From assembly GCF_028748185.1 (NCBI RefSeq), contig NZ_CP118164.1:5543814-5607813 (forward strand): a DNA stretch of 64,000 bases. Direction: 5' to 3'. Position 1 is the first letter of the stretch, and each line of letters starts with the position of its first letter. Of this stretch, positions 1-49,513 are shown one piece after another. This DNA comes from Bremerella sp. P1 (GTDB lineage Bacteria; Planctomycetota; Planctomycetia; Pirellulales; Pirellulaceae). Position numbers and translations under genes: made by a program. The notes beneath the pieces were generated by a model. The model saw only the letters and a list, made by a program, of their open reading frames with translations. It searched no databases and was not told the DNA's origin.

Positions 1-195
1 AATCTGGTCATTCGATCGGTTCCCGATTAGCCCGCACTGCAATTTTGGGAATTTCACCGGGTATCTATTAATTTTGTAGCCCATTCGCCTTATGATGGGC
101 TCACGGGCGATATCTCGGGCCATCTAGTGCGTGAGATACGCGAATACCGAACTCGTCCGACTTCCCACCGTAATCTCCCACCTCAAGGAACTCTC

Positions 196-37176: not shown

Positions 37177-40100
37177 GTGAAGACATTGAACACGTTCACT
37201 CCTTTGGCCCGACCTTACTCTCGGAAACGAACAAGACCCAACGTGGTTCACAGAGTCGAGCAGTTGGAAGTCCGCGCGATGCTGGCTGCGGACGTGCTTG
37301 GCGAAGTGCGTGTCACGTCGACCGAGTTGCTGGGTTCGAGTTTTGCGGACTTGTCTGGTTTGACGACCTCCTTCACGCTGACCGAAGAGGCGACTTTGCG
37401 TCTGGAGTCAACGCTGAACTTGAGCACCAACTCCAACAGCGACTTTGGCGGCAAAGTCCGTTTTGCCATCAATGGCACCGGCGAAACTACTGTCGCCGAG
37501 TTCAGTAACCCGTACGTGTTGCCGACACTCTCCGGCGACACTGGCGACACCAGCGTACTTGTCGATCCGCCACCCGCTAAGACATCCGAAAGTGACGCAG
37601 GGACAACCCACGATCACACCGTCAATGTTCCGGCATTTTCAGCAGATGCTCACAGCCATAGCTTTAGCTTGGCCCCGCAGAGTTCGATACGCAATTGGAG
37701 CGTCGATGCCAGGCAGTGGGTAACGCTGGGACCGGGCAGCTACACCATCACGGTTCAGGCTGAGGTTGATGATGCGGTGTTGCTGGATGGCTTGCAGAAA
37801 TTGACTGTCACGCGGTTCGCGTCAGGTCCTGTTCCCGATGTGAGCGACATCGAAAGGTACAGGACTATAAACCATCTTTTGGGCAGCGGATTCACTGAGA
37901 TCGGGAACGTTAGTCAATCGGTCACGCTGACAGAGGAAACATCTATCTACCTCAATTCGAATATCAAATTTCTTACATCACCCAACAATAGCTTCTCGGG
38001 AGAAATTCGCTTCACGGTCGATGGCGTCGCTGAAGCGACCGCCGCTACATTTGACAATCCTTTTCTTTTGCCGTCCCTTTCCGGCATTACCAATACGGTT
38101 TCCGCTACGGTCAATCCCCCGCTGACAACGACTTCGGATGCCGGAATTCCCAGTCATAACCACGCGATTAACATTGGTAACTTCAGTACGACCTCGCACA
38201 GTCACTCTGTGGATGTCGCTCCAGTCGACTCCGATAGAAAATTTAATGTCAACGCGAGTGACTGGATCACCCTGGGCCCTGGTACATATGATCTATCTCT
38301 TGAAATCAAGGCCAACGAGGATGTCTCTATCGACGGCTTCGTTTCGCTAACCCACGCGGCGTTCTCGCCGCAAGCGATTCCAGGGCTTACGTACGATGAG
38401 GTCGATACAACGGCTAACGGCAATGTGGCCGCGACGTTTGCCGATGTGCCTGGATTGTCGAGTTCGTTTGTTTTGACCGAAGAGACGCTTGTCAGTCTCA
38501 ATTCGCAGCTGAGCATGGCCACAATCTCCAATAGCAACTTCGCAGGGCAGGTTCGTTTTGCAGTCAACGGGAACGGCGAAGCGAACTCGGCTATCTTTGG
38601 TAATCCGTATCAATTGCCGGCTCTTACGGGGACTACCAGTAGTGAAACGTTCAGCGTCGATCCGCCGGTCGTGCCGACTTCAAAGGATGGAGCCGACGCC
38701 GGTCACACACACATGGTCGATATTGCTGAGTTCCAAAGCAATCCTCATGCCCATTTGGTAACGGTGAGCCCGTCGACGTCGCGCCGCACGTGGAATGTGG
38801 ATGCGGTCGACTGGATCCTCCTGGGCCCTGGTTCTTACACGGTAACTGTTCAGGCCCAGACCAACGGCACGGTCGTTTTCGATGACGAGCAATCGCTGGA
38901 CGTGGTGATGATTCCGACCAATTCTCCTCCGTTTCCTTCGATTGACTCGGTCAGCACGCTGCGATTCGTGGCGAATGAGATCACCGTTGATGCTTCCGCG
39001 ACCGATGCGAACGAAGCATCGGATCAACTTGAATATCAATATCGAGTTTACGTCGACGGCGAGGTAACACCCAGTTTCGAGGATAGCGGCACCGACATGA
39101 CGCAGTTCAAGTTCACGCCGACCGCTGCGGGCAGCTATCGAATCGAACTTACCGTTGTCGATTCGCTTGGTGCCTACGGCGTCGTCGAGCAGACCATTTC
39201 GGTGGAAGCCGCATCGAAACTGGATCTGATTTTCTCCAAGCAGCCCTACGTGGTTGGTGATGTTGATCCGGACGGAATTCCTGACGAGCCCGATGTCTTC
39301 CACGAATGGGAAGACGCCAGGGCACACCTGTGGATTACGATCGAAGGCGATCTGCCACAAGGGACGATGGATCTCTGGGTCGTCACGACGTTTCCTGACT
39401 CGTGGTTTGACGATCAGCCCGTTGTCGAATCTGTGCTCACAGCTGGCAAGGGTATCTCAAGAAGCGGACCGTCTTTGGGAGTTCTTTTCTACGACCTGGA
39501 TCTGTCGGGCTATCAAGTAGGCGACCGCGTCCTGTTGGCTACCCTTCTGTTTCTTCCTGATATTACCGATGGTGTAGGGATTCCGATCAGCGGCAACGGC
39601 GCTTACGAAATGCCAACCACGGATCATGGCGTTGGTCTGTTTTTAGCCTTGGATGAGAAAACCAACCAAGCGTTCCCATTCACGGAGCAAGCTGCCGGCG
39701 AGTTTGTTCCTGTGATTTACGATGCGGACGACAACGGCCAAGTGGGAATCGGTGATTTCAGCCAGTTCGTCTCGCAATTCGGTAAGGTGCCAAGCGTCGC
39801 CAATCCCGACGCCTATCTATTCGACTTCGATCGAAGTGGAAAGGTGGGCCTTTCTGACTTTACCGAATTCGTTCGGTATTTCGGCCTTCAGAAACCCTCG
39901 GGCACCCGGGTAGTGGAGATGCCAGGACTGACGACCGAGCTTCCTCCAGCCGCAAAATCACTGCCGCTGGAAGGCGAGTCGGTGGACAGCGTGGATGCGT
40001 TAATTACAGAACTTCCGATTACGCCTGATGATTTTGTGGCAAGCTCCATTACCGGAAGTTTCGCCAGCCGGCAAACGATCAGCTATGGACCGGTGGAATC

Positions 40101-40248
40101 AAGCGAGATGGATGCCCCTTCATTGATCCTGGAGCTCAATCTCGACCCTCGCCTGATCGATACGTTGGTTGCCTGCGACTACGTATCTGAGAATGAGGAG
40201 GACGATGAACTGGAGGACATTGAAGAGTTGCTCGAGTTCGTCGAGTAG
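37177..40248 (+). CDS. Planctomycete surface protein with three HxH-x11-HxH domains, PKD-like domain and dockerin repeats
   Basis: A 1,023-residue protein with GTG start and GGAGGG 6 nt upstream. The N-terminus carries the planctomycete extracellular motif VEQLEVRAMLAADV (about 27-40). It is followed by three copies of a beta-rich domain (about 51-214, 233-396 and 417-579), each with four His spaced as HxH-x11-HxH (H145/147/159/161, H327/329/341/343, H510/512/524/526). A PKD/cadherin-like domain spans about 585-678, and a further domain about 685-845. Two EF-hand/dockerin-type calcium loops are at 849-861 and 883-895 (DADDNGQVGIGDF and DFDRSGKVGLSDF), and the tail is acidic. Exported and probably cell-surface. 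The His set suggests metal binding; function unknown. Confidence 0.88.
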   Translation: MKTLNTFTPLARPYSRKRTRPNVVHRVEQLEVRAMLAADVLGEVRVTSTELLGSSFADLSGLTTSFTLTEEATLRLESTLNLSTNSNSDFGGKVRFAINGTGETTVAEFSNPYVLPTLSGDTGDTSVLVDPPPAKTSESDAGTTHDHTVNVPAFSADAHSHSFSLAPQSSIRNWSVDARQWVTLGPGSYTITVQAEVDDAVLLDGLQKLTVTRFASGPVPDVSDIERYRTINHLLGSGFTEIGNVSQSVTLTEETSIYLNSNIKFLTSPNNSFSGEIRFTVDGVAEATAATFDNPFLLPSLSGITNTVSATVNPPLTTTSDAGIPSHNHAINIGNFSTTSHSHSVDVAPVDSDRKFNVNASDWITLGPGTYDLSLEIKANEDVSIDGFVSLTHAAFSPQAIPGLTYDEVDTTANGNVAATFADVPGLSSSFVLTEETLVSLNSQLSMATISNSNFAGQVRFAVNGNGEANSAIFGNPYQLPALTGTTSSETFSVDPPVVPTSKDGADAGHTHMVDIAEFQSNPHAHLVTVSPSTSRRTWNVDAVDWILLGPGSYTVTVQAQTNGTVVFDDEQSLDVVMIPTNSPPFPSIDSVSTLRFVANEITVDASATDANEASDQLEYQYRVYVDGEVTPSFEDSGTDMTQFKFTPTAAGSYRIELTVVDSLGAYGVVEQTISVEAASKLDLIFSKQPYVVGDVDPDGIPDEPDVFHEWEDARAHLWITIEGDLPQGTMDLWVVTTFPDSWFDDQPVVESVLTAGKGISRSGPSLGVLFYDLDLSGYQVGDRVLLATLLFLPDITDGVGIPISGNGAYEMPTTDHGVGLFLALDEKTNQAFPFTEQAAGEFVPVIYDADDNGQVGIGDFSQFVSQFGKVPSVANPDAYLFDFDRSGKVGLSDFTEFVRYFGLQKPSGTRVVEMPGLTTELPPAAKSLPLEGESVDSVDALITELPITPDDFVASSITGSFASRQTISYGPVESSEMDAPSLILELNLDPRLIDTLVACDYVSENEEDDELEDIEELLEFVE
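37327..38913 (+). repeat. Three-copy domain repeat within the surface protein gene
   Basis: Three about 490-nt segments (about 37327-37818, 37873-38364, 38425-38913), separated by short linkers, encode homologous domains. Shared marks in each copy are a TEE triplet, an NPY/NPF motif, the paired HxH motifs and LGPGSYT/LGPGTY. Nucleotide identity between copies looks low, so this is an old duplication. Confidence 0.85.
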
Positions 40249-47261: not shown

Positions 47262-47542
47262 AGCAGATCACCTAAGTAGGAAGAGCAGGAGGGAAACGAG
47301 GAGGATCCGACACGTTAACTGTTACGAGAAAACGGAACAATCCTGACAAAAAACTTATTCAGGTTCCACCAACGACTATGGGGAATCTTCTAAATCCCAG
47401 CTGAAAACTGTTGGTTTTCGAACGATGGGTACGTTATAAGATTTCCAGCCCTGCGAAGTGTTGCTTCCAACCCTCCGTCGGTCCGGTCCTCCTCGCCTCT
47501 TTTCCAGCCCTTGTCTCTACCTTCACCAACTCAGGAGTCAAC

Positions 47543-49513
47543 GTGAAACCAGTCACTTTGCGTCAGCGGCTTCGATACCAATTCGATACCTTCATCTCTA
47601 AAGGAGGCGGTTCAATCTTCGTGAGCCTGGTGGTCGTCTTCCTGGTGCTGTTTGCCTTACTCGCCGGGCTGCGGGGCCTGAGCATGTTGATCGAACCGTC
47701 TGGCGTTTCGCACGAAACACACGATTCGTTTCTCGGCCAGGTTTACATCATCTTCCTGGAGTTGACCGACCCGGGGAATATGAACCAGGACAAGTTCTCG
47801 TCGCCCCTGATCAAGATATCAGGTGTCTTGGCTGGCCTGGCCGGCGTGATCATTCTGTCGATGCTGATCGCATTCATCACTACGGCGCTCGATCAGAAAC
47901 TGGCCGAACTCCGCAAAGGCTTTTCCCGCGTCATCGAAGACGACCACACGCTGATCCTGGGTTGGAATCATCGCGTGCCGGAGATCCTCCGTGAACTGGT
48001 GATCGCCAACGAAAGCGAAAGTGATGCCTGCGTGGTGATTCTGGCCGATGTCCCTAAGGAAGAGATGGACGACTTCCTCAGTGTGAACGTCACTGATCGC
48101 CGCACGACCCGCATCGTCACCCGTAGCGGTAAACCTTCGGCGAAGCTCAACCTCGAGATGGTTTCGCTGTCGACCAGTAAAAGTGTCGTGGTGCTGGCCT
48201 CGTGCCCGGAAGCGGCCACCGACGCGGAGAAAGCGGCCAGCGATATTCGCACGATCAAAACGATTCTCGGCGTGATGGCCTCGCGCGATGAGAACGAACA
48301 CGAAGAACTGAACATCGTGGCCGAGCTGTTCTTCGAGCGGAGCCGCAACATTGCCGAAGACATCTCGTCCGAGGTTACGGCAATCGACGGGCAAGAGATT
48401 TTGGCCAAGCTGCTAGTGCAGACGAGCCGTTCGCTGGGGCTGAGCGTTGTGTATGCCGAGATGCTGTCGTTCGACGGTTGCGAGCTTTACTTCCACCAGG
48501 CCCCGTGGAACGGTATCACGTTTGGCCAGGTAATGTATCACTTCCCCGATGGCGTACCGATTGGCCTGCGGCATGTCGACGGCACGGTGGTGATCAATCC
48601 TGAAGCCAGCATGGTGCTCGGCGAAGAGGACGACATTCTGATTCTGGCTGAAGACGATTCGACGATCGAGTTTGTCAAAGACGCGGTCGCCAAGCCCAAC
48701 GGGCTGAAGCTGGCCGACGGCAAGAAGAGCGAGCAGACGGTTGAACGCGAACTGCTGATCGGCTGGAACGAGAAGCTGCCGCTGATCGTTCGCGAATATG
48801 CCGACTACGTTCAGCCTGGCTCGCAGATCGATATCATGCTTCGCGAGCCGAACGATGCAATTCAAGAAAAGGTCGTGCAACTGGATGCCGAACTCGAACA
48901 TATGACCGTTCGCCTGATCGAGTCGAACCCGACGGATATTCCTTCGCTGACGGCGCTGCAGCCGTTTCACTACGACAACATCATCATCCTGAGTTCCGGT
49001 GATGTTGAAGCCGACTCGGAAACCTCCGACTCCGAGACGATCGTCATCTTGATTCTGCTGCGGAAGATCTTCTCGGAAGCTGGGGATGGCATCGACACGA
49101 GCAAGACCAAGATCATTACCGAGGTGATGGACTCCGACAATCAGGAGCTGGTCGCCAGGGCAGGGGTGCACGACTTCATCATCTCGAACCGCTTCGTCAG
49201 CACGATCCTGGCCCAGATCAGCGAAGAGGCCAGCATCAAGGCTGTGTATGACGACCTGTTCTCCGAGGATGGTTCCGAGATCTACCTGAAGCCAGCCCGA
49301 CTCTACTTCGATTCGTTCCCGGTGGAAGTCACCTTCGCCGACATGATGGATATCGCCCAGCAGCGCCAGGAAGTATGCATTGGCGTGAAAGTTCAGGCGT
49401 TAGAAAACAACATGAACCAGAACTTCGGCGTGAAGCTGATCCCTGAAAAGAACACGAAGTGGACCTTAAATGCGGAAGACCGCCTGGTGGTGGTTTCGGA
49501 GGATGAGACTTAA
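47543..49513 (+). CDS. CASTOR/POLLUX-type ion channel with two RCK-like domains
   Basis: A 656-residue membrane channel. Two N-terminal membrane helices (about 24-45 and 90-115) flank a pore segment with LELTDPGNM, similar to the ADAGNHA filter region of plant CASTOR/POLLUX. Two cytoplasmic NAD-like RCK domains follow: one begins near 134 (LILGWNHRVPEILREL), the second near 405 (ELLIGWNEKLPLIVRE). GTG at 47543 is the start, since AGGAG lies 5 nt upstream; an ATG at 47411 would add 44 residues with no domain. Bacterial members conduct cations and may be Ca2+- or ligand-gated. Gating is inferred from the family. Confidence 0.88.
   Translation: MKPVTLRQRLRYQFDTFISKGGGSIFVSLVVVFLVLFALLAGLRGLSMLIEPSGVSHETHDSFLGQVYIIFLELTDPGNMNQDKFSSPLIKISGVLAGLAGVIILSMLIAFITTALDQKLAELRKGFSRVIEDDHTLILGWNHRVPEILRELVIANESESDACVVILADVPKEEMDDFLSVNVTDRRTTRIVTRSGKPSAKLNLEMVSLSTSKSVVVLASCPEAATDAEKAASDIRTIKTILGVMASRDENEHEELNIVAELFFERSRNIAEDISSEVTAIDGQEILAKLLVQTSRSLGLSVVYAEMLSFDGCELYFHQAPWNGITFGQVMYHFPDGVPIGLRHVDGTVVINPEASMVLGEEDDILILAEDDSTIEFVKDAVAKPNGLKLADGKKSEQTVERELLIGWNEKLPLIVREYADYVQPGSQIDIMLREPNDAIQEKVVQLDAELEHMTVRLIESNPTDIPSLTALQPFHYDNIIILSSGDVEADSETSDSETIVILILLRKIFSEAGDGIDTSKTKIITEVMDSDNQELVARAGVHDFIISNRFVSTILAQISEEASIKAVYDDLFSEDGSEIYLKPARLYFDSFPVEVTFADMMDIAQQRQEVCIGVKVQALENNMNQNFGVKLIPEKNTKWTLNAEDRLVVVSEDET

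Follow-up and report, generated by a model that had tools for sequence, protein, structure and literature searches.

A 1,023-residue protein of the planctomycete Bremerella sp. P1 carries three tandem copies of a domain, and each copy contains an HxH-x11-HxH histidine element that matches the needle of the phage T4 tail-fiber protein gp37 in spacing and, less clearly, in local sequence. We tentatively propose, at just short of an even chance, that the protein folds within one chain into a TNF-like trimer, where the HxH pairs of the three copies make up two six-histidine metal sites. The gene lies in a 64,000-nucleotide stretch of DNA, called here the window, to which all coordinates refer (Table 1).

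Table 1. Features of the three-copy protein and its gene, in window coordinates.
Feature	Residues	Window position	Strand	Basis
GGAGG, ribosome-binding-like site, 7 bases upstream of the GTG start codon		37165..37169	+	read in sequence
Whole open reading frame, probably secreted planctomycete-type protein	1,023 aa, GTG start	37177..40248	+	
Planc_extracel, weak match	25-40		+	Pfam E 0.05, below cut-off
Copy 1, TNF/C1q-like sandwich with HxH needle insert	52-215	37330..37821	+	alignment of copies, copy model
Copy 1, first HxH = HDH	145-147	37609..37617	+	sequence
Copy 1, second HxH = HSH	159-161	37651..37659	+	sequence
Copy 2	235-397	37879..38367	+	alignment of copies
Copy 2, first HxH = HNH	327-329	38155..38163	+	sequence
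Copy 2, second HxH = HSH	341-343	38197..38205	+	sequence
Copy 3	417-580	38425..38916	+	alignment of copies
Copy 3, first HxH = HTH	510-512	38704..38712	+	sequence
Copy 3, second HxH = HAH	524-526	38746..38754	+	sequence
Ig/PKD-like domain (Y_Y_Y, PF07495)	615-676	39019..39204	+	Pfam E 4.5e-11, above cut-off
Two EF-hand/dockerin-like calcium loops	847-903	39715..39885	+	EF-hand models E 0.014-0.036, below cut-offs

With untrimmed bounds at residues 41-225, 226-405 and 406-590, the copies are 38% (69/180, copies 1 and 2), 44% (81/183, copies 1 and 3) and 37% (67/180, copies 2 and 3) identical, and after trimming they align over 164 columns. This confirms an earlier note on this DNA, which had described three divergent copies of a roughly 164-residue domain, each with HxH-x11-HxH. 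The element is found in 3/3 copies, and the HxH motifs account for 12 of the protein's 18 histidines. The needle alignment has 36 gap-free columns. The three window copies agree in 8 of these, and 7 stay invariant when the two copies of genome G580 (93% identical) are added, which brings the known needle-bearing copies to five; all four histidines belong to both sets of invariant columns. The chance that four histidines would fall in 8 invariant columns of 36 is C(8,4)/C(36,4) = 0.0012, a post hoc figure obtained on related copies. The same note had held that the histidine set is kept while much of the rest differs, and this is borne out, the histidines being present in 5/5 needle-bearing copies while 29/36 gap-free needle columns vary. 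Free variation of these positions among homologues, which had been named as a refutation, was not seen; the histidines are absent, as a block, only where the needle is absent.

The three copies (residues 41-590) are followed by the Y_Y_Y/PKD-like domain and then by the two EF-hand/dockerin-like loops. A weak planctomycete export motif at the N-terminus suggests that the protein is probably secreted. The notion of a surface protein with dockerin-type calcium loops is plausible but weak, given the sub-threshold Planc_extracel and EF-hand matches and the fact that the Pfam scan listed no Dockerin model for this protein. A profile of the copies finds just these three in the genome. The C-terminal portion of the protein, residue 549 onward (window 38821-40248), is related to sequences at 8 further sites in the genome, several of them in very long frames, and all 8 own-genome matches of the whole protein begin at query residue 549 or later. 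A Pfam family was assigned to 7/10 neighboring open reading frames (aminotransferase, DUF1559, APH, desaturase, LysM/thioesterase, esterase and Castor/Pollux-type) and to none of the remaining 3/10, and the same scan gave no phage family among the ten. At window 47411-49513 (+), a Castor/Pollux ion-channel domain (E 2.8e-26) lies in the middle of the encoded protein.

Relatives of the copies are few. Profile searches matched 2/392 genomes of the phylum at E <= 0.001 (the own genome, G000, and G183, the latter a chance match on inspection), 6/296 of the order at E <= 0.01 and 19/241 of the family at E <= 0.1, the own genome being included in both of the latter. Only G000, G580 and G505 were accepted as real after inspection of the family matches. 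The other weak genome matches were judged by eye to be chance, being histidine-kinase-like, esterase or unrelated repeat frames or having stops inside; 14 weak loci were inspected on both strands, and one family match (G489, contig 384, E 0.074) lies outside this inspection. Among eight other species of the window's genus, seven gave no match; the sole match, in G692, has internal stops and was put down to chance. Needle-bearing copies were thus seen in only 2/241 family genomes and, in all genomes searched, in just this one and G580, which carries two copies, each with the layout HxH-37-HxH-x11-HxH, in a frame open for over 5,300 codons.

Genome G505 has three sandwich copies with no HxH and no needle. 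Comparison by hhalign of the profile of these copies (A5) with that of the needle-bearing copies (A2) gave E 1.8e-11, and in a small local search the G505 profile matched the window protein with a whole-protein E of 7e-16. In a search of the family, this profile matched 3/240 genomes (G505, G580 and G776), the own genome not being matched at E <= 0.001. G776 carries three needle-free copies in a 4,871-codon frame, without HxH in the copies, whose identities of 97, 74 and 73% therefore indicate a separate, recent triplication. A survey of the class with all 11 copies as query listed 5/397 genomes (G000, G505, G580, G1091 and G870), G776 not among them; G1091 has one copy, truncated by a contig end, and G870 a single needle-free copy that matches weakly (E 3e-4; locus L061), in surroundings that look phage-tail-like by eye. 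Complete arrays are present in four genes, with 3, 3, 3 and 2 copies. The needle is a removable insert; the needle-free G505 and G776 keep the sandwich. In G580 (locus L021, minus strand), the two copies differ at 1/246 bases in the needle and at 19/366 in the flanking sandwich, which suggests a recent conversion of the needle stretch. At L021 and at L060 (G1091), the domain is preceded by a similar stretch ending '...GAGQLVQGT.NAFDGLNRLQV', as if one kind of host domain had received it in both.

No curated Pfam or NCBIfam model scored above its cut-off over any window copy when the whole protein and the single copies were searched, the best E-values for single copies being 0.017 in Pfam (5 members) and 0.0088 in NCBIfam (11 members). 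PDB sequence searches with the window copies, and also with the copy from G580, returned no family. The NCBIfam model TIGR03769 matched, below threshold, the last strands of copy 3 (W..LGPGSYTVTVQA; residues 551-570, window 38827-38886) with E 2.2e-5 on the whole protein and 1/11 single copies with E 0.059; it was set aside as the family of the copies, since it aligns past the HxH motifs. By the spacing rule that holds for the HxH of cupins, the spacing here is too short, and a cupin-type motif was therefore set aside as well. Scans of genome and viral contigs found no true relative of the copies, and the absence in the genome contigs counts little, because the same scan missed G580; tblastn against phages found no true relative either.

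A model of copy 1, built from the three window copies, has a pLDDT of 70 and a pTM of 0.61, with pLDDT 43-61 in the needle region (residues 61-120). Among the matches listed, its high-probability Foldseek hits in the PDB are mostly of the TNF family (4-1BBL, CD40L, TNF-alpha), with probabilities reaching 1.00, E-values of 0.03-0.2 and, at a probability of at least 0.7, TM-scores of about 0.33-0.45; 0/821 PDB matches reached E <= 0.001. Other PDB hits were a phage phi812 spike domain (probability 0.91) and a TNF-like bacterial lectin, and phage tail proteins and proteins with a C1q domain were among the viral structure matches, 1/990 of which reached E <= 0.001. Against PDB sequences, the 11-copy profile gave weak matches to insulin-receptor chains as the best (E 0.012, taken as chance), and no TNF-like protein came out best. 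A prediction of all three copies from the single sequence reached a pLDDT of 40 and gave no usable model. On a moderate model and a modest similarity, the sandwich of one copy appears to resemble TNF-family domains most. The unit that had been taken for one undescribed domain is probably better read as a sandwich of TNF/C1q type into which a needle is inserted: the copies stand, while the motif is not new, as HxH-x11-HxH is already known from gp37.

T4 gp37 has HxH-x11-HxH at two places, 915/929 and 966/980; the gaps between the HxH motifs of its needle are 29, 11, 34, 11, 6 and 6 residues, and its first motif lies 138 residues upstream. Pairwise BLAST against gp37 (1,026 residues) aligned the G580 copy with residues 923-987 (E 2e-4), copy 1 with 955-1006 (E 0.002) and copy 2 with 966-987 (E 0.019); copy 3 was compared by Smith-Waterman only. 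In the latter comparison, copies 1, 2, 3 and the G580 copy scored 54, 58, 40 and 78 against gp37, versus 29, 30, 37 and 31 against the control gp34, and the gp37 score was matched by 0, 1, 21 and 0 of 1000 shuffles, respectively, so that the match of copy 3 is weak on both counts. Profiles did not single out gp37 at the level of the whole protein, the E-values for gp34 and gp37 being 0.1 and 0.14 with profile A1 and 0.0094 and 2 with A2; the best single stretch for A1, unlike A2, was the gp37 needle (0.0092). In PHROGs, which provides no cut-offs, a tail-fiber model covers the needle of the G580 copy (E 6.4e-4), and the best matches of the single window copies are 0.029 for copy 1 (unknown function), 0.066 for copy 2 ('tail protein') and nothing for copy 3.

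Among the matches listed, counted as distinct peptides, the fiber-like share of GxHxH pairs in viral contigs was 56/123 at spacing 11, compared with 7/103 at spacing 10 and 9/115 at spacing 12; at least 120, at least 120 and at least 118 loci were counted in these scans, so the fractions and not the totals are compared, and 'fiber-like' is a criterion of our own, set after the matches were viewed. The layout HxH-(25..60)-HxH-x11-HxH, to which G580 conforms with 37 residues, was present in 35/55 distinct fiber-like viral open reading frames from the 11-residue scan (among the matches listed), a set fetched by the 11-residue pattern that cannot itself show that 11 is favored. The head segment between the down and up HxH, 37 residues long in G580, is absent from the window copies, which may act like a needle yet would represent an incomplete gp37 tip. 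Judged by motif identity, the assignment of the histidine element to the needle element of phage fibers is well supported, and for G580 origin by descent is likelier than convergence. The comparison with gp37 in the earlier note has thus proved a good lead, and metal coordination by the HxH motifs is plausible because spacing, local sequence and the head-and-needle layout of G580 match gp37. One viral open reading frame (L113, 2-1102, -) was rejected as a relative, hhalign of its last 200 residues giving no kinship and scans returning itself or nothing; it has a PHROGs minor tail protein match (residues 19-106) and a dense HxH cluster, followed by a C-terminal stretch that was judged by eye to resemble a sandwich.

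In the reading that we favor, one loop of each of the three tandem sandwich domains would bear the needle, and the three copies of one chain would fold into a single-chain pseudo-trimer, because such sandwiches normally trimerize. TNF-like proteins are described as usually trimeric (PMC12914763), and a stable trimer within a single chain has been engineered by connecting three TNF units through short linkers (PMC5529482). The three first HxH pairs would form one six-histidine octahedral site on the axis and the three second pairs another about 14 residues further along; three copies with two HxH each would therefore give exactly two such sites, both holding Fe(II) (or Zn), like gp37 and the R-pyocin fiber. 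In R-pyocin fibers, octahedral iron is reported to be held by six histidines from three copies of one HxH, and gp37 and phage spikes likewise use this motif, across three chains, to bind iron (PMC6116203); the gp37 needle holds seven irons in line, and changing H929 or H931 to alanine led to loss of plaque formation (PMC6957217). The role of iron in the folding of fibers is presented as a hypothesis without experimental data (PMC6116203). In the window protein, the metal would pin a rigid needle to the knob, and the pinned needle might serve as an adhesive or recognition tip, projected by the Ig-like and calcium-loop domains. Three-copy arrays in 3/4 complete genes accord with a trimer, four genes being few, and the two copies of G580, not three, count against a single-chain one.

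Trimers might instead form between chains, each copy being its own trimeric bead with two six-histidine sites, which would make the protein a rod with six metals. Phage fibers and TNF-like proteins are known to trimerize between chains (PMC6116203, PMC12914763), the two copies of G580 would be unable to close a trimer alone, and L061 offers a single needle-free domain in its phage-tail-like region. We nevertheless consider this arrangement somewhat less likely: it leaves unexplained both the occurrence of exactly three copies in three of the four complete arrays, a small number, and the separate triplication in G776. The idea that the four histidines of one copy form the metal site, which the earlier note implied, calls for revision, as a gp37-type site requires three chains or copies. 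If every copy instead held a single Zn or Cu of its own through its four histidines on hairpin arms, with no trimer, the presence of four invariant histidines within 17 residues of each copy would find a simple place; the spacing and, less clearly, the flanks, however, are those of phage fibers, where HxH pairs bind metal over three chains (PMC6116203), and the G580 copies have three HxH, one of them 37 residues off, so that such a site seems improbable. Still less probable is that the histidines bind no metal and are either relics or structural parts of a segment that came from a phage. The rarity of needle-bearing copies in the family would suit such a relic, but the histidines are kept in all five copies, against variation in most gap-free needle columns. 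As for the single-chain trimer, its fullest form, a natural one whose three needles make two stacked six-histidine iron sites and so a cellular version of the phage metal center, is possible, with a chance somewhat below even.

With T4 gp37, the copies share the HxH-x11-HxH spacing and, in G580, the HxH-head-HxH-x11-HxH order, and their flanks are similar, weakly so in copy 3; they differ in that the element is inserted thrice in the sandwich domains of one chain, in a cellular protein, and in that the window copies are without the head and the first HxH. The HxH motif is likewise shared with the Shaft of R-type pyocin fibers and with phage spikes, but the six histidines of the pyocin fiber come from three separate chains (PMC6116203), whereas here one chain would supply them all through its three copies. 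The MAT fibers of Bdellovibrio have TNF-like tips in a surface context and assemble between chains, the term HxH occurring 0 times in the paper (PMC10769870). The TNF-like lectin PLTL of Photorhabdus belongs to a sugar-binding context and forms a hexamer of TNF-like trimers, also inter-chain (PMC12914763), and matched the copy 1 model with a low Foldseek probability (0.21-0.25). Mussel HcC1qDC6 is an animal protein with three C1q domains in tandem in one chain, and in its description the word trimer is absent and no intrachain trimer is claimed (PMC5519582); three TNF domains in one chain are also found in the engineered single-chain TNF (PMC5529482). Among the papers searched, none dealt with planctomycetes and an HxH motif together, and no such protein was among the matches listed for tandem or single-chain C1q/TNF in bacteria or for phage-derived planctomycete surface proteins. 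We know of no metal needle in the mussel protein or in engineered TNF, and to our knowledge the six-histidine iron center is known only from homotrimeric phage and pyocin fibers and spikes. The parts are known, and their combination appears to be new.

Here the gp37-type iron needle would appear as a portable insert, built by a cell into one of its own proteins. Should the copies fold as one trimer, each of the six HxH motifs could be changed alone, which is not possible in a homotrimeric fiber. Were this true, the symmetric Fe(His)6 site would become genetically separable, and the role of the buried iron, as discussed for phage and pyocin fibers (PMC6116203), would be directly testable.
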